Assembly: GCA_017516465.1 (NCBI GenBank)
Contig: JAFXCR010000027.1
Span: 1 to 36,008 of the forward strand
Source of the DNA: Ruminococcus sp.
GTDB lineage: Bacteria; Bacillota; Clostridia; Oscillospirales; Ruminococcaceae
Direction of reading: 5' to 3'
DNA length: 36,008 nt
Below are positions 3,325 to 11,762 of the stretch, piece after piece. The notes below the pieces were generated by a model, which was not told the DNA's origin, searched no databases, and was given only the letters and a program-made list of their open reading frames with translations. The position numbers were made by a program, and so were the translations under genes. Within the stretch, counting starts at the first letter, position 1, and each line of letters begins with the position of its first letter.

Positions 3325-3915
3325 ATGGGACAGATAATTATTTCAGTCGGACGTGAATTCGGCAGCGGCGGACGAGTTATTGCTGAGGCTCTTGCAAAAA
3401 GATTTGATTTACCGATCTACGACCGCCACCTTATCCTTGAAATCGCTGAAAAGACAGGTCTTGCACCTGAGCTTATCGAGAAGTACAACGAAAACCCAAA
3501 ACACCGTCTTATCTCACGCAATGTCAGAGGTTACAGCAACTCTATTGAGGATAATATCGCTGAAATGCAGTTCAAGTTCATTGAGGACAAGGCTGCAAGC
3601 GGAGAATCATTTGTTGTTGTGGGACGCTGCTCTGAGTCGAAGCTCAGAAAATACGACTGCCTCGTTTCGCTGTTTGTTCTCGGCGATATGAGCGAGAAAA
3701 TTAAGCGTGTAATGCAGGTTTACGACTTGTCTGAGGAAAAGGCTGAGGAGCTTATCAGCAAAAAGGACAAAAAGAGAAAGCGTTATCACAACTATCACTG
3801 TACTGCTCACTGGGGCGATTCAAGACTGTATGACCTCTGTATCAACAGCAGCCGTCTTGGTATCGACCGCACTGTGGATATTCTTGAAGAATACATCAGA
3901 GCAAGAGCTAAATAA
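3325..3915 (+). CDS. Cytidylate kinase-like family protein
   Basis: A 196-residue cytosolic protein of the cytidylate-kinase-like P-loop family (AAA_26 type). The N-terminus reads IIISVGREFGSGGR, the variant P-loop of this family, followed by the YDRHLI segment. A lysine/arginine-rich lid-like stretch (KKDKKRKRYHNYH) lies at about residues 150-165. It is shorter than bona fide Cmk (about 220 residues) and lacks the classic GPxGSGK P-loop, so it is probably not the essential CMP kinase. Relatives occur widely in gut Firmicutes, often near transporters, with unproven substrates. A strong AAGGAGG ribosome site precedes the ATG. It is followed by a terminator hairpin at 3923. Confidence 0.8.
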   Translation: MGQIIISVGREFGSGGRVIAEALAKRFDLPIYDRHLILEIAEKTGLAPELIEKYNENPKHRLISRNVRGYSNSIEDNIAEMQFKFIEDKAASGESFVVVGRCSESKLRKYDCLVSLFVLGDMSEKIKRVMQVYDLSEEKAEELISKKDKKRKRYHNYHCTAHWGDSRLYDLCINSSRLGIDRTVDILEEYIRARAK

Positions 3916-3922
3916 ATCTGAG

Positions 3923-3949
3923 GGGCGAACCAATGTGTTCGCCCTTTTT
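3923..3949 (+). terminator. Rho-independent terminator
   Basis: The perfect 8-bp stem GGGCGAAC/GTTCGCCC with a 6-nt loop is followed directly by TTTTT. It sits 8 nt after the kinase-like stop codon. The stem is a sequence variant of the hairpins in the dispersed 77-nt elements. Confidence 0.85.
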
Positions 3950-4008
3950 AATGCGTAATTGTGGTATCGGCATTTGCCGGAATAATGAATTGATTTCCGG
4001 AAACGATT

Positions 4009-4168
4009 GTAGGGATGACCATTGGTCGTCCGCATAACGTGAAATATCCGATAAAACATCACGGGCGAACACAGTTCGCTTCTACGGAATGTTGTTAGAA
4101 AATTTTTTCAATCCGTCCCGTCAGTGTCACTATAATTACGAATTACACATTACGCATTACGAATTGAA
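4009..4168. repeat. 77-nt double-hairpin element, copy 2, plus ATTACG microrepeats
   Basis: The 343-nt gap between the kinase-like gene and the cysteine desulfurase gene holds a second copy of the 77-nt element at 4009-4085, running from GTAGGG to CTAC. Its hairpins are GGATGACC-ATT-GGTCGTCC (4013-4031) and GGGCGAAC-ACA-GTTCGCTT (4063-4081). Differences from copy 1 keep pairing through G-T wobbles or paired changes. At 4136-4168 are ATTACGAATT/CATTACGCATTACG microrepeats like those at 1759-1795. The rest of the gap holds the terminator at 3923 and the promoter at 4178. Confidence 0.75.
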
Positions 4169-4177
4169 TCATAATTG

Positions 4178-4206
4178 TTGCATTTTTTCTGGATTTGTGG
4201 TATAAT
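4178..4206 (+). promoter_or_regulatory. Extended -10 promoter of the desulfurase-thiI unit
   Basis: TTGCAT (4178-4183) and TATAAT (4201-4206) are spaced by 17 nt, with TGG directly before the -10 box. It is about 50 nt upstream of the cysteine desulfurase start. Confidence 0.75.
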
Positions 4207-4258
4207 AAGATGTTACATAAAAATAATAAGGTATTGCCTTAAGAATTAGGAGCAGAAA

Positions 4259-5389
4259 ATGTCAGTTTACCTTGATAATGCCGCAACTACAAAGCCCTGC
4301 GTTCCGGCAGTTGAAGCCGCCATTGACGCAATGACTGTAAATTTCGGGAATCCGTCCTCCCTGCACCGTGCAGGTCTTGACGCTCAGCTTGTCGTTGACC
4401 GTGCAAGAAAAATAATTGCAGATTCAATCGGAGCTTCCCCTGAAAATATCATATTTACTTCCGGAGCAACCGAGAGCAACAACCTCGCTCTGCGTGGAGC
4501 CTCTGCCGCTTACGGCAGAAAACGGCGTAAAATCGTGATTTCCGCTGTCGAACACGCTTCCGTTGACGAGACTGCCTCTGCACTTGAAAAATCCGGCTTC
4601 GAGCTTGTCAGGGTTCCTCCTCGTGAGGACGGTCGTATCTATGCCGCAGATTTCCTTGCCGTGTGCGATGAAAATACCTGCCTTATCAGCATGATGCTCG
4701 TCAATAACGAAACCGGTTATATACTCCCTGTAAAGGAAACTTTTTCCGCAGTCAAACGGAAATTCCCCGATATCATCACACACTGCGACTGCGTTCAGGG
4801 CTATATGAAGCTTCCTATGAAGGTTAATACGCTCTGTGCAGACCTTATATCCCTCAGCGGTCATAAAATACACGGAGTAAAAGGTGCAGGAGCATTATAC
4901 ATCAGAAAGGGAATCAGAGTTCTGCCTGTTGTTACCGGCGGAAAGCAGGAAAAAAGTATTCGTTCCGGAACTGAAAGCGTTCCGGTGATAGCAGCATTCG
5001 GAGCCGCCGCAGAATATCTTGCACCGACTATCGCACAGCGGAGCGAAAGAGCCTCACAGCTGAAAGGATATCTCCTCAGCCGGCTGTCGGAATCGGAGAA
5101 TATCGCCGTGAATTCGCCGGAGGACGGCTCTCCGTACATTATAAATATCTCGGCAATGGGAAAGCGGTCGGAGATAATGCTGCATTTCCTTGAAAACCGT
5201 GGAATCTACGTTTCAAGCGGCTCGGCTTGCTCAAAGGGCGTGCAGAGCGGAGTTCTCGGAATGTTCGGAATCACCGGAAAAAGAGCCGACAGTGCACTGA
5301 GAATCAGCATTACAGCGGAAACGACCAAGAATGAGCTTGATGAATTTGTATCCGCACTGAATGATGGACTTGAAAAATTAAGAGGATGA
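4259..5389 (+). CDS. Cysteine desulfurase (NifS/IscS family, NifZ-like)
   Basis: A 376-residue PLP enzyme that takes sulfur from cysteine as a persulfide and leaves alanine. It opens with YLDNAATTKP, typical of the family. The PLP-binding lysine is K203 in SGHKIHG, and the persulfide-forming cysteine is C324 in SSGSACSKG. Length is normal. The gene ends 13 nt before thiI. In Bacillus subtilis the desulfurase NifZ is encoded beside ThiI and serves it specifically in 4-thiouridine formation, so the same role is inferred here. No iscU or sufU neighbour is present, which argues against a general Fe-S role but does not exclude it. AGGAG precedes the start. Confidence 0.9.
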   Translation: MSVYLDNAATTKPCVPAVEAAIDAMTVNFGNPSSLHRAGLDAQLVVDRARKIIADSIGASPENIIFTSGATESNNLALRGASAAYGRKRRKIVISAVEHASVDETASALEKSGFELVRVPPREDGRIYAADFLAVCDENTCLISMMLVNNETGYILPVKETFSAVKRKFPDIITHCDCVQGYMKLPMKVNTLCADLISLSGHKIHGVKGAGALYIRKGIRVLPVVTGGKQEKSIRSGTESVPVIAAFGAAAEYLAPTIAQRSERASQLKGYLLSRLSESENIAVNSPEDGSPYIINISAMGKRSEIMLHFLENRGIYVSSGSACSKGVQSGVLGMFGITGKRADSALRISITAETTKNELDEFVSALNDGLEKLRG

Positions 5390-5402
5390 AAGGATAATCG
5401 AA

Positions 5403-6575
5403 ATGAAGGAAGTTGTACTTGCAAAATACGGAGAAATGGCTCTGAAAGGGCTTAACAAGCGTACCTTTGAGGATATGCTCACAAAAAATATCAGACGCAG
5501 ACTCAGACCTCTCGGCAGCTTTACGCTGACAAGAGCACAGTCAACGCTGTACATCACTCCAGATGAGGAAAATACTGATCTTTCTGAGGTTGTTGACGCT
5601 GTCGGAAGGATTTTCGGAATCGCCGCATACTGCCGTGCGTGCGTCTGCGAGAAGGATTTTGCCGATATCGCAGAAAAGAGCGTGGAGTATCTTGAAAACA
5701 TCCTCAGCACAGCAGGAACATTCAAGGTGAACGCAAAGAGAGCTGACAAGGCATTCCCCATGAAATCGCCTGAAATCTGCATGGAGCTTGGCGGAATTAT
5801 CCTTGAAAAGTTCCCGCATCTGACCGTTGACGTGAAGAATCCGGAGGTAACTGTTACCGTTGAAATCCGTGATACTAACGCTTATGTCCACGGTGAGAAT
5901 CTCAAGGGTGCAGGCGGACTTCCCGTTGGCAGCAGCGGAAAGGCTATGCTTCTTCTTTCCGGCGGAATTGACAGTCCTGTTGCCGGCTGGATGATGGCGA
6001 AAAGAGGCGTTCACATTGAGGCTATCCACTATGTGAGTCCGCCCTATACATCTGACCGTGCAAGGCTCAAGGTTGAGACTCTCTGCGAGAAAATGACTCC
6101 CTACTGCGGAGGAATTGCCTTCTACTGCGTACCGTTCACAGAGCTTCAGGAGGCTATCAGAGACAACTGTCCGGAGGAGTTCTTTACGATTATAATGAGA
6201 CGACTGATGATGGAAATTGCCCAGAGAATCGCTGCAAAGGACAACTGTCTTGCTCTTATCACTGGTGAAAGCGTGGGACAGGTTGCAAGTCAGACGATGG
6301 CGGCTATTGCCTGCACTGACGCTGTGTGCAGAATTCCCGTATTCCGTCCGCTTGTCGGAATGGATAAGACGGAGATTATTGAAATTTCACGAAAAATAGA
6401 TACTTTCGAGACATCAGTTCTTCCTTATGAGGATTGCTGTACGGTATTCACACCTAAGCATCCGAAGGTAAGACCTCAGCTTTCCGACGTCGAGAAGGCT
6501 CAGAACAGCTTTGATTTTGAGCCGCTTATCCAGAAGGCAATAGAGGAAACGGAGCTTAAGACATTTAATGCGTAA
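5403..6575 (+). CDS. thiI: tRNA 4-thiouridine synthetase ThiI
   Basis: A 390-residue cytosolic enzyme that adenylates U8 of tRNA and inserts sulfur to form 4-thiouridine; some homologues also take part in thiamine thiazole synthesis. An N-terminal ferredoxin-like region and a THUMP domain occupy about residues 1-165. The PP-loop ATP-binding motif LSGGIDSPVAGW follows, with its serine at residue 186. The protein ends soon after the catalytic domain and lacks the C-terminal rhodanese domain of the E. coli form, so it should rely on the adjacent desulfurase for persulfide sulfur. The last two codons and stop (AATGCGTAA) coincide with the start of a dispersed ATTACGC-type repeat, so the C-terminus may have been trimmed or altered by repeat insertion. 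Confidence 0.93.
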   Translation: MKEVVLAKYGEMALKGLNKRTFEDMLTKNIRRRLRPLGSFTLTRAQSTLYITPDEENTDLSEVVDAVGRIFGIAAYCRACVCEKDFADIAEKSVEYLENILSTAGTFKVNAKRADKAFPMKSPEICMELGGIILEKFPHLTVDVKNPEVTVTVEIRDTNAYVHGENLKGAGGLPVGSSGKAMLLLSGGIDSPVAGWMMAKRGVHIEAIHYVSPPYTSDRARLKVETLCEKMTPYCGGIAFYCVPFTELQEAIRDNCPEEFFTIIMRRLMMEIAQRIAAKDNCLALITGESVGQVASQTMAAIACTDAVCRIPVFRPLVGMDKTEIIEISRKIDTFETSVLPYEDCCTVFTPKHPKVRPQLSDVEKAQNSFDFEPLIQKAIEETELKTFNA

Positions 6576-6713
6576 TTCGTAATGCATAATGCGTAATTGG
6601 CACCAGCTGTGTCCCCGAATCACGTTTCCTACAACAACGGGTGAACACAGTTTGCCCCTACATAGAATAACGTATAATAGCTATTTCGTAGGGGCGGATA
6701 TCATCCGCCTGAT
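6567..6713. repeat. Composite of dispersed intergenic repeats
   Basis: Four repeat modules are packed into the gap after thiI. Reversed ATTACGC-type microrepeats occupy 6567-6598. A GGCACCAGC...CCCCGAATCACGTTTCC block at about 6599-6630 matches those at 1551 and 1682. A half element GGGTGAAC-ACA-GTTTGCCC followed by CTAC (6639-6661) keeps pairing by two G-T wobbles. GTAGGGGCGGAT-ATC-ATCCGCC lies at 6688-6709. A TATAAT at 6673-6678 could be a -10 box for the downstream unit, but no good -35 box accompanies it. Confidence 0.7.
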
Positions 6714-6760
6714 AAATAGATATATTGTTAATTAATGCCAAAAACAGAGGTTTTTCAACA

Positions 6761-7288
6761 ATGAAAATTATGGAAAATAGTGGATGTACACCCGAAAATC
6801 TTGACAAATTGGTTACAAGTGTTGTAAAATTACTATTATATAGGGGCGTATCCATTTCCACGGCAGAAAGCTGCACAGGCGGTCTTTTATCGGAGCTGAT
6901 AACGGCTGTTTCCGGTGCGTCACAGATTTTCCAGCTCGGAATATGCACCTACTCGGAGCAGATGAAAACGGAGTTCCTTGGTGTATCTCCCGATATTATG
7001 CGGAATTACGGCGTTGTCAGCCGTGAAACTGCTCTTGCCATGGCGGCAGGACTAAAGAAAATTTCCGGAGCTGATATCTGTGTTTCTGTGACAGGAATTG
7101 CAGGTCCCGGCGGCGGAACTCCCGAAAAACCGGTGGGAACAGTCTTTACCGGCTTTGATATCTTCGGCAGACTGACATCATCTCAGCTGCCATTCAGCAC
7201 CATCACGGATTTCAGCCGTGCCGGCATACGCATGGCGGCGGCTTACCATATATTTGAAACGATTAAAAATGCACTTACGGAGGTGTAA
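6761..7288 (+). CDS. CinA C-terminal domain protein (nicotinamide-nucleotide amidohydrolase type)
   Basis: A 175-residue stand-alone version of the CinA C-terminal domain (PncC type), predicted to deamidate nicotinamide mononucleotide in NAD recycling. The hallmark STAESCTGGLLSELIT lies near residue 30 and GIAGPGGGTPEKPVGT near residue 115. The N-terminal molybdopterin-like domain found in full-length CinA is absent. ATG at 6761 is chosen because AGAGG lies 10 nt upstream; a TTG at 6725 is in frame but without a ribosome site. The gene ends 7 nt before the first sortase gene, whose ribosome site overlaps its last codons, so they are probably cotranscribed. The link to sortases may be only positional. 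Confidence 0.87.
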   Translation: MKIMENSGCTPENLDKLVTSVVKLLLYRGVSISTAESCTGGLLSELITAVSGASQIFQLGICTYSEQMKTEFLGVSPDIMRNYGVVSRETALAMAAGLKKISGADICVSVTGIAGPGGGTPEKPVGTVFTGFDIFGRLTSSQLPFSTITDFSRAGIRMAAAYHIFETIKNALTEV

Positions 7289-7295
7289 TACCGGA

Positions 7296-9023
7296 ATGAA
7301 CGATTTACACGGTGGTTCTGAGGAACTCACCAGAGCTGAAAAAATTAAAAGAATAAAAAAAATAATACATCAGGACGCACCTGCACCGAATCCGGCAATT
7401 CCCGAAGTTCCTGCACCGAAGCCGGCAGTTCCGGAAGCACCCATACCGCAGTCTGATGTTCCTGAGATTCCTGTACAGAAGCCGGCTGTTCCGGAAGCTT
7501 TTGCACCGAATCCGGAAGTTCCTGCATCAGAGCCGGTCAGTGTATCTGCGGAATTCGATTGGGAACGCAGCATTGCACGGATTTTAGAGAAGAAATCGCA
7601 GGAGAAAAAGAACTCCGGCGGAAATACGGCTGAAAGTATTCTTGCTGAGCTTTTCGGCGAGGACTGCCTGACTTCCTCACCGGAGCAGGAAATCATCCGT
7701 GAGCCGGTACCGGAGCCGGAAATCATCCGTGAGCCAGTACCGGAGCCGGAGATAATCCCCGAACCAGTGCCGGAGCCGGAGGTAATCCCCGAACCAGTGC
7801 CGGAGCCGGAAATCATCCGTGAGCCAGTACCGGAGCCGGAGGCAATTCCCGAACCAGTGCCGGAACAGGAAGAATTCGGCAAAAAGAAAAAGGGAAAAAA
7901 GAATAAGGAAAAGAGTTCCGGAGCTGTCACAAAGAAAAAGAAGAAAAGGACTCTCAAACAGCGATTATTAGGGCTTTTTCCGCAGAAGGGCGACAAGGTT
8001 TCCGAAATCATACGCAAGATAGTCTTTCTGATTTCTATAATCGCAATCGTGGTCTGCGGCTATCTCGTGGGGGACTACTACTTCGAGCTGTGGCAGAGCA
8101 AGAAAATTACTGAGGAGGTCAGCAATCTCTACTGGACGTACGAAACAACAGAGCCGGCAACAGGTGAGGAGCATCCCGAAATTGAGCCGGAAGAAGAGGG
8201 CAGGGAAAAGAAGGTCTACAAGCTTCTGCCCGGAGCAGAAAAGCTGCTCGATATGAACAAGGATGTTATCGGCTACATCAAGATAGACGGTACTCCTGTT
8301 GACAACGTTATACTCAGGGGCGAGGACAACGTTGAATACCTTGACAAGAAAATAAGCGGCGAAAAGAACAGAACAGGAGAGCTTTTCCTTGACTGGCGCA
8401 ATCACTTTGACGACGTTGACGAGGAAGGTCATCTCAAGTACGGCAATTCGCACAATCTCATTATTCACGGTCACGCCATGAAGGATGAGTCGATGTTCGG
8501 ATCGCTTATAAAATACCGCACAACGGACGGCTATTACAGCGAGCATCCGATAATTTACCTCAACTCGAATTACAGCCACTATACCTACAAGATTTTCTCT
8601 GTTTTCGTTGTTGACGCTGAGGATAAGACCGATACGAAGATGAACTGCTGGGATAAACTCAATTTTACCAGCGAGGTGGATTTCTACAACTTCGTAAACG
8701 ATGCAAAGAGGAGAACAATCCACACAAATGACGTGGATGTACAGTACGGCGATCAGCTTCTTACGCTGTCAACGTGTGATACCTACCTCGGCGACAGGGG
8801 ACGTCTTATTATCATGGCCCGACGCGTCAGAGAGGGCGAGGATCCTCTTGAGGGAACTCAGAACAGTACCAGAAACCACAATATCAAGTGGCCTACGCTG
8901 TACTATAACTCGAATTCCGGCAAGTATGATCCCAATGATTTCGTTCCGTACAATGCACCGGCAGAGGAAAAAAAGCCTCAGTCCGGAGCTGAACAGACAA
9001 CAACGGTATCCTCAGGAGTGTGA
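7296..9023 (+). CDS. Class B sortase with long repeat-rich cytoplasmic N-terminus
   Basis: A 575-residue membrane-anchored transpeptidase predicted to attach surface proteins to peptidoglycan. The catalytic domain covers about residues 320-520, with His393 in LIIHGHAM, Cys494 in TLSTC and Arg503 in GRLIIMARR, the SrtB-type triad. One membrane segment (about residues 245-265, IIRKIVFLISIIAIVVCGYL) follows a very basic stretch (KKKKGKKNKEK, TKKKKKRTLK), so the preceding 230 residues should lie in the cytoplasm. That tail has two sets of ten-residue Pro/Glu repeats: about five of the APKPAVPEAP type, then six of EIIREPVPEP (7689-7868). Typical SrtB proteins are about 250 residues, so the tail is unusual. 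The start is fixed by GGAGGTG 10 nt upstream. No obvious substrate with a sorting signal is seen in the window. Confidence 0.88.
   Translation: MNDLHGGSEELTRAEKIKRIKKIIHQDAPAPNPAIPEVPAPKPAVPEAPIPQSDVPEIPVQKPAVPEAFAPNPEVPASEPVSVSAEFDWERSIARILEKKSQEKKNSGGNTAESILAELFGEDCLTSSPEQEIIREPVPEPEIIREPVPEPEIIPEPVPEPEVIPEPVPEPEIIREPVPEPEAIPEPVPEQEEFGKKKKGKKNKEKSSGAVTKKKKKRTLKQRLLGLFPQKGDKVSEIIRKIVFLISIIAIVVCGYLVGDYYFELWQSKKITEEVSNLYWTYETTEPATGEEHPEIEPEEEGREKKVYKLLPGAEKLLDMNKDVIGYIKIDGTPVDNVILRGEDNVEYLDKKISGEKNRTGELFLDWRNHFDDVDEEGHLKYGNSHNLIIHGHAMKDESMFGSLIKYRTTDGYYSEHPIIYLNSNYSHYTYKIFSVFVVDAEDKTDTKMNCWDKLNFTSEVDFYNFVNDAKRRTIHTNDVDVQYGDQLLTLSTCDTYLGDRGRLIIMARRVREGEDPLEGTQNSTRNHNIKWPTLYYNSNSGKYDPNDFVPYNAPAEEKKPQSGAEQTTTVSSGV
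7689..7868 (+). repeat. Six in-frame 30-bp repeats inside the sortase gene
   Basis: Six consecutive 30-bp units encode variants of EIIREPVPEP, with R/P and I/V/A substitutions at positions 2 and 4. Third-position changes differ between units, so the array is not entirely fresh. Such tandem arrays can vary in copy number between strains. Confidence 0.9.
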
Positions 9024-9029
9024 TATCTT

Positions 9030-10007
9030 ATGAACAATAAAATAAAAACTGCGGTCGCTGCTTTGTCTGCGGCTGCTGCCGTTGGAATGGGAGTTTTCGT
9101 TTTTTCTATCAGCAAGGATGGAAATGACAATCCGACTGTAAGCTCCTCTCAGGAAATTACAGAGCCCTCCACTCCGGAGCCGACAACGGAATTCGTTCTG
9201 CCGGACGACTGGTCGAAGAATGTTGACTACGTTCCGTCCGACCACGGAATTACTCCGAAGGCAAGGGCAGTCAGCAGTGTGAATCCCGACTACATCGCAT
9301 GGATGAAGATTGACGGTACTCAGGTTGATTACCCGATATTGCTCGATCCCGGCGAAATACAGGCGAACGACGGCTTCCACGGAACTGAAAATGCCGGAGA
9401 GATTTACTACTACCTCTACCGGAATATCTACAAGGCTTACGAATTTGCAGGCTCAATTTTCATGGATTACCGCAATGTTCTCAATGCCTTCGGCGATGAA
9501 CAGTCGGAAAATCTGATTCTGCACGGTCACGATATGCTCAACGAGAGTATGTTCGGCTCGTTCAGAAGATACCGCAATGAAACCGGCTTCTACGATAAAT
9601 GCCAGTTTATGGAGATTGAATCAAAATACGGCAAGCAGGATTACGTTATCTTCGCATATCTCCCTACAAAGGGTGTGTACGAGGAAGGCGGCTTCAATTA
9701 CTGGGATATGTGCGAGCTTGATACAAAGGAGCAGTTCGACGCCTATGTGAAGACCTGCAAAGACGGAGCCTACCTCGATACAGGAATTGATGTGCAGTAC
9801 GGCGACAAGCTTGTTACAATGTCAACGTGCTTCAACGATCAGGCGGATATGCGGTTTATCGTTGTGGCAAGAAGCCTCAGGGAAGGTGAGACAATCAGCG
9901 ATTCCACAAGCATCGAACATACACAGGAATGGCACGACGCACAAAAGGCTGCCGCAGAAGCGGAAGCCGCAAGCAGGGCAGAAGCAGAATCTGCCGCCGC
10001 AACCTGA
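9030..10007 (+). CDS. Second class B sortase
   Basis: A 325-residue sortase, 6 nt after the first. An N-terminal hydrophobic segment (about residues 5-27, AAVGMGVFVFSI) acts as signal anchor, followed by a Thr/Pro/Glu-rich spacer (residues 35-60). The catalytic residues are His167 in LILHGHDM, Cys267 in TMSTC and Arg275 in MRFIVVARS. It shares the YIAWMKIDGTQVDYPILL segment with the SrtB family and resembles the first gene, so the two may be diverged duplicates; unlike it, this one has no long cytoplasmic tail. The C-terminus is Ala/Glu-rich (AAAEAEAASRAEAESAAAT). The two sortases may act in sequence or on different substrates, which the sequence does not show. Confidence 0.88.
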   Translation: MNNKIKTAVAALSAAAAVGMGVFVFSISKDGNDNPTVSSSQEITEPSTPEPTTEFVLPDDWSKNVDYVPSDHGITPKARAVSSVNPDYIAWMKIDGTQVDYPILLDPGEIQANDGFHGTENAGEIYYYLYRNIYKAYEFAGSIFMDYRNVLNAFGDEQSENLILHGHDMLNESMFGSFRRYRNETGFYDKCQFMEIESKYGKQDYVIFAYLPTKGVYEEGGFNYWDMCELDTKEQFDAYVKTCKDGAYLDTGIDVQYGDKLVTMSTCFNDQADMRFIVVARSLREGETISDSTSIEHTQEWHDAQKAAAEAEAASRAEAESAAAT

Positions 10008-10023
10008 TTTATAGGTGATTTTT

Positions 10024-11652
10024 ATGAAAAACAGACAATCCATGAAAAGTACTGCCGCTGTTCTGGCAGGACTTATCGCTCTGACGGGAACGGTCTCGCT
10101 TATCGGCTACGCAGCCGGTCAGGAGCCTTCCTCAACAACTGAAATCAGCACGGCTGAAACAAGCACAACCGAAACCGGCACCTCCGGAAGTACCACAGAA
10201 ACTCAGGCAGATACTGAAGCATCCTCAGAAATTGTGGAAAAACCGGAAGAATCGGAAGAATCGGCAGAGAAAATCGACTGGACAAAGGCTGATATCTCGG
10301 CTTATGACGAAAGTCTGTCGCTTGTGAGCTACGAGGAGACAACTCCTGAAATGCTTGAAACAGTCGGAGTGAAAACGGCTTCTGAGGAAGGCGATGAACT
10401 CACTGAGGAGGAATTCGCGGCTATGACTGAAAGACGCCGGAAAATCAAGAAGCTCTCTCCGTCCCTGACAAGAAAGGGCAGCAATGCAGAGCCGACAACA
10501 GTCGATCTGTATCTCTCAGGAAAGCCGGTCGGTGAGATTCCGCCCTCTCAGGGAGTTGACGCGGAAGGTCAGCCCGGAAGCTTCACCTTTGTTACATACG
10601 GCTGGGGACACGGAGTCGGTCTCAGCCAGAACGGTGCAAACTTCTATGCTTCGTACAGCGGCTGGACATATCAGGATATCCTGTTCCACTACTATCCCGG
10701 AACGTTCCTGATGAATACCGGTCTGACTGACTACGAGGAGCTTACTGTCCGTCATCAGCCTTATGGTGAGGATACCCTTGACCTTGTATCGCAGATTGTA
10801 TACAACGAGGTCGGCGGCTCCATGGCTTACGAGGCAATAAAGGCTCAGGCGGTTGCTGTATATACATATATAAAGTATAACGGCGATGATTCCAACGATC
10901 TCCGCCCGAAGGCAGATCCGCCGCAGATTGTAATTGACGCGTGTGCTGAGGTACTCGGAGAGGCTCTTTTCTATGACGGAGACTACGCTCTGACGATGTT
11001 CTATGCGTCAAGCGGAGGCTGTACAGCCAACTGCTACGAGATATTCTATCAGGATATTCCCTATCTGACGTGTGTTCCCAGCGATTACGACGGTGCTTAT
11101 GATCCTCATTTCGGAACTGTTACATACATAAGCTCAGCGATGATGAGGTACAAAATTGAAACTGCGTATGGAATCACGCTGTCGGACGATCCCTCGAACT
11201 GGATTGTACCGATATATTCCGAGGATACAGGCTATATAACTGATGTTCTTATAGACGGACAGATGTACGTCAAAGGCTATGCGTTCTCGCTTGCAATGGG
11301 ACTTAAATCGTGCAAGTTTGATCTGTTCTATACTCCGACAGATGAGGAAGCAGCAGGCGGACTTCTTGGTGAAGCTCCCATGCCCGATGTTGATATGCCG
11401 GATGTTCCGGTATCAGAAATTCTGCCGGAAATACAGATACCTACCGAGGAGTCGTCAGAGGAGTCAACAGAGGAAACTACTGAGGATTCCACAGGTGAGC
11501 CGACAGAAGAACCCACAGAGGAACCCACAGAGGAACCCACGACTTCCGGCGATGTCACAGAGCCTTCAACAGAGGAGACAACAACCTCCGGAGATGTTAC
11601 AGAGCCTTCAACGACTTCCGGTGATGTTACAGAGACTTCAATCCAGAATTAA
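10024..11652 (+). CDS. Secreted SpoIID/LytB-type glycan-strand lyase, apparently circularly permuted
   Basis: A 542-residue exported protein with an N-terminal signal or anchor (residues 10-30), a Ser/Thr/Glu-rich spacer, and a SpoIID-like domain at about residues 155-435. SpoIID proteins are lytic transglycosylases that cut peptidoglycan glycan strands. The canonical order is catalytic-Glu segment, ALKAQAVAARTY, SSSGG, LGLRS, then GWGHGVGMSQ and HYYPGT. Here GWGHGVGLSQNGA (from residue 193) and LFHYYPGT come first; then YNEVGG with the likely catalytic Glu262, AIKAQAVAVYTY, YASSGGC (Cys333, Cys337) and finally MGLKSCKF (residues 425-432). All parts are present but rotated. A Thr/Pro/Glu repeat tail (EEPTEEPT, TSGDVTEPS) ends the protein, with no LPxTG-like signal. 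ATG 10024 is preferred over GTG 10015 because AGGTG lies just upstream. Confidence 0.85.
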   Translation: MKNRQSMKSTAAVLAGLIALTGTVSLIGYAAGQEPSSTTEISTAETSTTETGTSGSTTETQADTEASSEIVEKPEESEESAEKIDWTKADISAYDESLSLVSYEETTPEMLETVGVKTASEEGDELTEEEFAAMTERRRKIKKLSPSLTRKGSNAEPTTVDLYLSGKPVGEIPPSQGVDAEGQPGSFTFVTYGWGHGVGLSQNGANFYASYSGWTYQDILFHYYPGTFLMNTGLTDYEELTVRHQPYGEDTLDLVSQIVYNEVGGSMAYEAIKAQAVAVYTYIKYNGDDSNDLRPKADPPQIVIDACAEVLGEALFYDGDYALTMFYASSGGCTANCYEIFYQDIPYLTCVPSDYDGAYDPHFGTVTYISSAMMRYKIETAYGITLSDDPSNWIVPIYSEDTGYITDVLIDGQMYVKGYAFSLAMGLKSCKFDLFYTPTDEEAAGGLLGEAPMPDVDMPDVPVSEILPEIQIPTEESSEESTEETTEDSTGEPTEEPTEEPTEEPTTSGDVTEPSTEETTTSGDVTEPSTTSGDVTETSIQN

Positions 11653-11691
11653 GAATTAAACAATGTCTGCCAGCTTTGTATAATGTTGATG

Positions 11692-11729
11692 AAAATGCAC
11701 AATTCCGTAGGTTGGATTTGTGCATTTTT
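11692..11729 (+). terminator. Rho-independent terminator after the sortase/SpoIID unit
   Basis: A perfect 11-bp stem AAAATGCACAA/TTGTGCATTTT with a 15-nt loop ends in a T-run (TTTTT), 40 nt after the SpoIID-like stop. The stem is AT-rich, but position and symmetry support a terminator separating this unit from the dcw promoter. Confidence 0.7.
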
Positions 11730-11733
11730 GCAC

Positions 11734-11762
11734 TTGTAAAATTTTTCAGTTCGTTGTATAAT
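11734..11762 (+). promoter_or_regulatory. Main dcw promoter (upstream of mraZ)
   Basis: TTGTAA (11734-11739) and a perfect TATAAT (11757-11762) are spaced by 17 nt. Transcription should start near 11769, giving a leader of about 95 nt that carries the candidate MraZ boxes. Confidence 0.8.

Follow-up and report, generated by a model that had tools for sequence, protein, structure and literature searches.

A SpoIID/LytB domain with rotated block order encoded behind two sortases in Ruminococcus

A permuted SpoIID/LytB gene at a sortase locus

The window analysed here, a stretch of 36,008 nucleotides forming one contig (JAFXCR010000027.1) of a Ruminococcus sp. genome (1.99 Mb, 55 contigs), carries behind two sortase genes a gene for a SpoIID/LytB-domain protein whose conserved blocks stand in rotated order. 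The block with the GHGVG motif (G-block), which closes the canonical domain, precedes the block with the catalytic glutamate (E-block), which canonically opens it. The coordinates of the permuted open reading frame (ORF) are exact, with an ATG at 10024 and a stop codon ending at 11652. The features of the locus are as follows:

7218..9023, + strand: class B sortase 1, ORF start uncertain; TIGR03064, 157.5 bits against a cut-off of 153.75
9030..10007, + strand: class B-like sortase 2; TIGR03064, 116.1 bits, below the same cut-off
10024..11652, + strand: permuted SpoIID/LytB-domain protein, 542 aa, single open frame; TIGR02669, 93.2 bits
10024..10119, + strand: probable signal peptide or N-terminal membrane segment, residues 1-32, read from the sequence
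10576..10722, + strand: G-block, residues about 185-233, SFTFVTYGWGHGVGLSQNGA...HYYPGT, canonically C-terminal; matches the block hidden Markov model and aligns with the C-terminus of 5i1t
10735..11331, + strand: E-block, residues about 238-436, running from the catalytic-Glu block as far as LKSCKF; N-terminal and middle in the canonical domain
10807..10809, + strand: Glu262, equivalent by alignment to C. difficile E101; invariant in 69/69 and 85/85 sequences
10861..10863, + strand: Tyr280, Arg in 24/27 other canonical-order SpoIIDs
11340..11649, + strand: low-complexity Thr/Glu/Ser tail with tandem repeats
11680..11745, + strand: hairpin with a U-rich tail, 3' of the permuted gene, probable operon end; -19.9 kcal/mol, z -4.59

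The two sortases and the permuted gene likely form one operon, since the gaps between them are short (6 nt between the sortases, 16 nt before the permuted gene) and a stable U-tailed hairpin follows the last gene; this hairpin is absent from the terminator matches of our pattern scan. The His, Cys and Arg motifs of sortases are catalytic, and they read HGH, TLSTC and RLIIMARR in sortase 1 and HGH, TMSTC and RFIVVARS in sortase 2. We take the same-strand gene order in the window to be nifS, thiI, cinA, the two sortases, the permuted gene, mraZ, rsmH and a division/wall cluster, the sortases and the permuted gene being profile-scored and the other names read from the sequences.

Block order in the window protein and its relatives

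Along the protein, GWGHGVG begins at residue 193 and HYYPGT at 222, followed by E262 within YNEV, by EAIKAQAVAVYTY from residue 270, and then by ASSGGC and MGLKSCKF. A preliminary description of this DNA had recognised all the SpoIID blocks in rotated order, and three comparisons bear this out. TIGR02669 passes its cut-off of 83.3 bits in two out-of-order stretches, the N-terminal of which (residues 130-230) falls on the profile end (195-269/270). Restoring the canonical order of the blocks lets TIGR02669 align in a single stretch (profile 13-269/270) and raises its score from 86.9 to 96.3 bits; TIGR02870, then likewise in one stretch, rises from 103 to 118.1 bits. Finally, alignment to solved SpoIIDs places residues 175-229 on 273-326 of 5i1t, at its C-terminal end, residues 257-290 on 72-105 and residues 306-434 on 150-278, with E262 on the catalytic E101 of C. 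difficile SpoIID. Residue 193, given earlier as the start of the domain, holds as the position of the motif; the domain itself begins nearer 185, with the strand SFTFVTY. The protein has one G-block and one E-block only, and therefore no second, complete SpoIID domain to which GWGHGVG could belong, a possibility that had been raised at the outset and that we reject.

Since the order is G-block then E-block, and becomes collinear with the E-then-G order of TIGR02669 only after rotation, we file the protein as a permuted variant rather than as an ordinary member of that family. Nor do we file it as spoIID, because its score with the stage II sporulation protein D equivalog TIGR02870 (101.7 bits) stays under the cut-off of 234.75.

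Scanning species genomes yielded 71 relatives, in 70 of which GxGHGVG precedes EAxKAQ within one frame; the remaining relative (L071) starts inside the gene at a contig end. Among the relatives found, the closest belong to Ruminococcus, R. flavefaciens accounting for many of them, and the rotated order also occurs in isolates such as ATCC 19208, 007c and YAD2003. The rotation of the SpoIID block order is thus real and conserved; it is not a matter of chance, because the same order recurs in 70/71 relatives and because reordering merges the two profile stretches and raises the score. In an alignment of 69 sequences (the window and 68 loci, with L070, L071 and L072 left out), E262, Y280, K273, Q275, H196, G197, V198, G199, S201, Q202 and H222 are invariant, and the catalytic Glu is likewise kept in all 85 rows of the tree described below, across both block orders. 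The close set of 71 may overlap with the wider genome-search set, as L051 and L076 appear to be identical when aligned. One Ruminococcus-type gene (L042) lies on a contig labelled Alistipes, probably a mislabelled metagenome bin, and one rotated gene (L087, genome G027) has a stop codon inside the E-block, which may reflect a decayed gene or a sequencing error.

Both orders at the sortase locus and the origin of the rotation

Among 197 genomes of the window's family, 188 have matches to the rotated-domain profile. Of the 30 loci fetched from this family, 10 are canonical and 20 rotated, the latter being L097 and 19 close ones (own genome among them); beyond these 30, the matches listed were judged by query range only. 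The order sample (295 genomes, threshold 1e-30) yielded 21 loci, three of them rotated, one of which belongs to another family (L129, genome G396); the class sample (391 genomes, 1e-25) added 15 loci, one rotated (L146, genome G822), and the phylum sample (398 genomes, 1e-22) a further 13, all canonical. Without repeats, the block-scored ORFs number 93 in G-E and 55 in E-G order, and no mixed order (E-G-E-G or G-E-G) occurs among these 148.

In related genera, a canonical-order counterpart occupies the same locus (nifS-thiI-cinA-class B sortases-SpoIID). We refer to 28 such rows (L094-L104 without L097, L127-L145 without L129) as sisters; they share up to 42% identity with the window domain and differ from it in having the E-block before the G-block. 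Flanks were taken for 14 of the 22 rotated genes of the wider genome search (own genome among the 22), for all 28 sisters and for 20 of the 27 other canonical tree rows, and the counts that follow omit rows with less than 1.5 kb upstream (3 of the 71 close relatives, L116 of the 28, and L201 and L209 of the 20). A sortase lies upstream of, or is fused to, the gene in 68/68 close relatives, 13/14 other rotated genes and 26/27 sisters, as against 0/18 other canonical SpoIIDs, so that the link to sortases, first noted for the two genes in the window, proves strongly conserved. The corresponding counts for an upstream thiI are 61/68, 12/14, 17/27 and 0/18.

Several variants of this neighbourhood were seen. 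Sortase and canonical-order SpoIID are fused in one open frame in three genomes (L124, at 3659-6796, L182 and L189); in L124 the same frame contains a CinA-like part, and its sortase part has lost the His and Cys. Four consecutive sortase matches precede a canonical-order SpoIID at L117-L119, L121-L123, L181, L186 and L194. The genome with L186 (G406) has another canonical-order copy, L187, which lacks an upstream sortase. Loss of sortase activity among the neighbours was considered and rejected: among 224 sortase matches 25 appeared to lack the Cys, and of the eight of these that were realigned, together with two others and the two window sortases, seven keep it, the eighth being the fused sortase of L124.

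The ORF ends within two residues of the G-block in 62/65 canonical-order ORFs and within three residues of the E-block in 40/107 rotated ones, in counts that include repeats and some frames truncated by contig ends. Block matches abut in 102/107 rotated ORFs, the block models having been cut at that point. Such ORF ends fit a domain that was rotated as a self-contained unit.

The position of the usual Arg and the loop behind it offer a further comparison. Rotated rows have Tyr there in 29 cases and His in one (n=30), with a loop of 28-35 residues; sisters have 25 Tyr, two His and one Ile (n=28), with 31-36 residues; the other canonical rows have 24 Arg and three His (n=27), with 42-62 residues. 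As the rotated and sister forms share both the Tyr for Arg and the short loop, the rotation most likely arose inside an already formed, sortase-linked SpoIID subfamily.

From 85 of the 148 non-repeat ORFs, leaving out most close Ruminococcus rows and L087, we built a maximum-likelihood tree over 250 columns of the domain with its blocks re-ordered. It requires three order changes: in a 27-row rotated clade of the window's family (98/100), in L129 with L146 (100/99), and in L097, whose long branch falls next to the other canonical rows; the branch of L146 is also long. Forcing all rotated rows into one clade costs 26.5 log units and is not rejected by the approximately unbiased (AU) test (p 0.126). 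For three groups defined after seeing the tree (the all-rotated set was defined by block order), the AU test gives p 0.315 for the 27-row clade with L129 and L146, 0.107 for the 27-row clade with L097, and 0.0253 for L097, L129 and L146 together. It is conceivable, if somewhat doubtful, that SpoIID was permuted more than once, with as many as three events (in the Ruminococcus clade, in G396 with G822, and in G001), most of them at a single sortase locus. If so, this wall enzyme would have been rewired repeatedly, and the sortase locus would tolerate or favour its rotation.

Possible function and rival explanations

Canonical SpoIID lytic transglycosylases (5i1t and 5txu from C. difficile, 4rwr from B. 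anthracis) share with the window protein the motif blocks, the catalytic Glu and the E-block fold; the window protein differs in its rotated order and sortase locus and, as judged against the 27 canonical tree rows rather than the solved chains, in the short loop and the Tyr for Arg of rotated rows. We take E88 of B. subtilis SpoIID to be the same position as E101 and E262, and its R106 to be the usual Arg. According to two studies, E101 is needed for the activity of C. difficile SpoIID, a stretch of which binds zinc (PMC6221140), and E88 is the catalytic residue in B. subtilis (PMC6635528). Further reports name four potential substrates of sortase in C. acetobutylicum, one of them a SpoIID-like protein (PMC4877998), and describe the sortase-mediated anchoring of the cellulosome scaffoldin ScaE in R. 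flavefaciens (PMC4081043).

Taken as a whole, we consider it rather probable that the gene encodes a secreted wall protein whose SpoIID/LytB domain is naturally circularly permuted, refolds and acts as a lytic transglycosylase at a sortase locus. The block order, its conservation, the locus and the invariance of the catalytic Glu are established. The rotation would have taken place within the sortase-linked subfamily at its conserved locus, so that the G-block of about 50 residues, once the end of the domain, now leads and is connected through a short linker to the former N-terminus of the E-block. The two blocks would then refold into a single SpoIID domain, which would cut the glycan strands of peptidoglycan with Glu262 as the catalytic acid/base and thereby open or tidy the wall where sortases attach surface proteins. 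On the strength of motif, invariant Glu and locus, a secreted lytic transglycosylase acting at sortase attachment sites is the most likely function.

The E-block fold matches solved SpoIIDs, in a comparison by structure aligners that follow sequence order, probe the E-block only and are blind to the rotated block; the two segments would come together in a single SpoIID fold. Several observations speak against this reading of fold and function. The best model is of moderate quality (predicted local distance difference test score, pLDDT, 75.3; predicted template modelling score, pTM, 0.65), and its GHGVG loop has a pLDDT under 50. Trimming to the domain was discarded as a route to a better model, as confidence fell (pLDDT 65.5, pTM 0.52). 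The Glu-bearing piece, residues 257-290, aligns on its own only weakly to solved chains (5.7 bits), yet it is the stretch where Pfam SpoIID (PF08486) passes its gathering score of 23, with 23.4 bits over just 33 residues. The zinc-binding stretch of C. difficile SpoIID is probably missing here, because the usual Arg is Tyr and the following loop is short. One rotated gene (L175) has no nearby sortase.

The altered Arg position (Tyr or His), the short loop and the poorly predicted GHGVG loop would also suit a domain that folds without being catalytic and serves the sortases as a glycan-binding or scaffold module. We regard this as unlikely: Glu262 is invariant in both sequence sets and the GHGVG core in 69/69, which points to a kept active site, and the Tyr and short loop are not products of the rotation, because canonical-order sisters have both. 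As packing within one chain is a prediction, there would be room for a domain-swapped dimer or chain, in which each E-block is completed by the G-block of a different molecule; this seems decidedly improbable, as the blocks adjoin through a short linker, as if the old termini lay side by side, an argument in which the abutting partly reflects where the block models had been divided. A usual route to circular permutation is duplication with later trimming, so that a functionless leftover of a tandem duplication might be imagined. Yet neither mixed order was met among the block-scored ORFs, and both blocks are strongly conserved; an assembly artefact is rejected, since the rotated order recurs in relatives, isolates included. 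Together, artefact and leftover deserve hardly any credence.

To our knowledge, it is rare to find a circularly permuted enzyme domain while relatives still have the unrotated counterpart at the corresponding place in the chromosome. The locus described here allows a gene-by-gene comparison of both orders, and the effect of the rotation on fold and catalysis is therefore directly testable. The sortase-linked SpoIID subfamily marked out in this way would connect the cutting of glycans with the attachment of surface proteins in gut bacteria. A literature search, judged by titles and abstract starts and covering few subscription papers, found neither a permuted SpoIID nor a sortase-linked SpoIID locus. 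Permuted NlpC/P60 domains (YaeF/G6R, LRAT-like), as described in PMC6403190, also show a circularly permuted fold in a wall-enzyme superfamily; they differ from the window protein in having an unrelated, cysteine-dependent fold.

The source genome has six sortase matches in total, two of them at this locus, and encodes a canonical-order SpoIID elsewhere (L001). A third SpoIID-like protein, of 486 aa, on contig 53 (L003) has apparent peptidoglycan-binding repeats and a degenerate GHGVG block.
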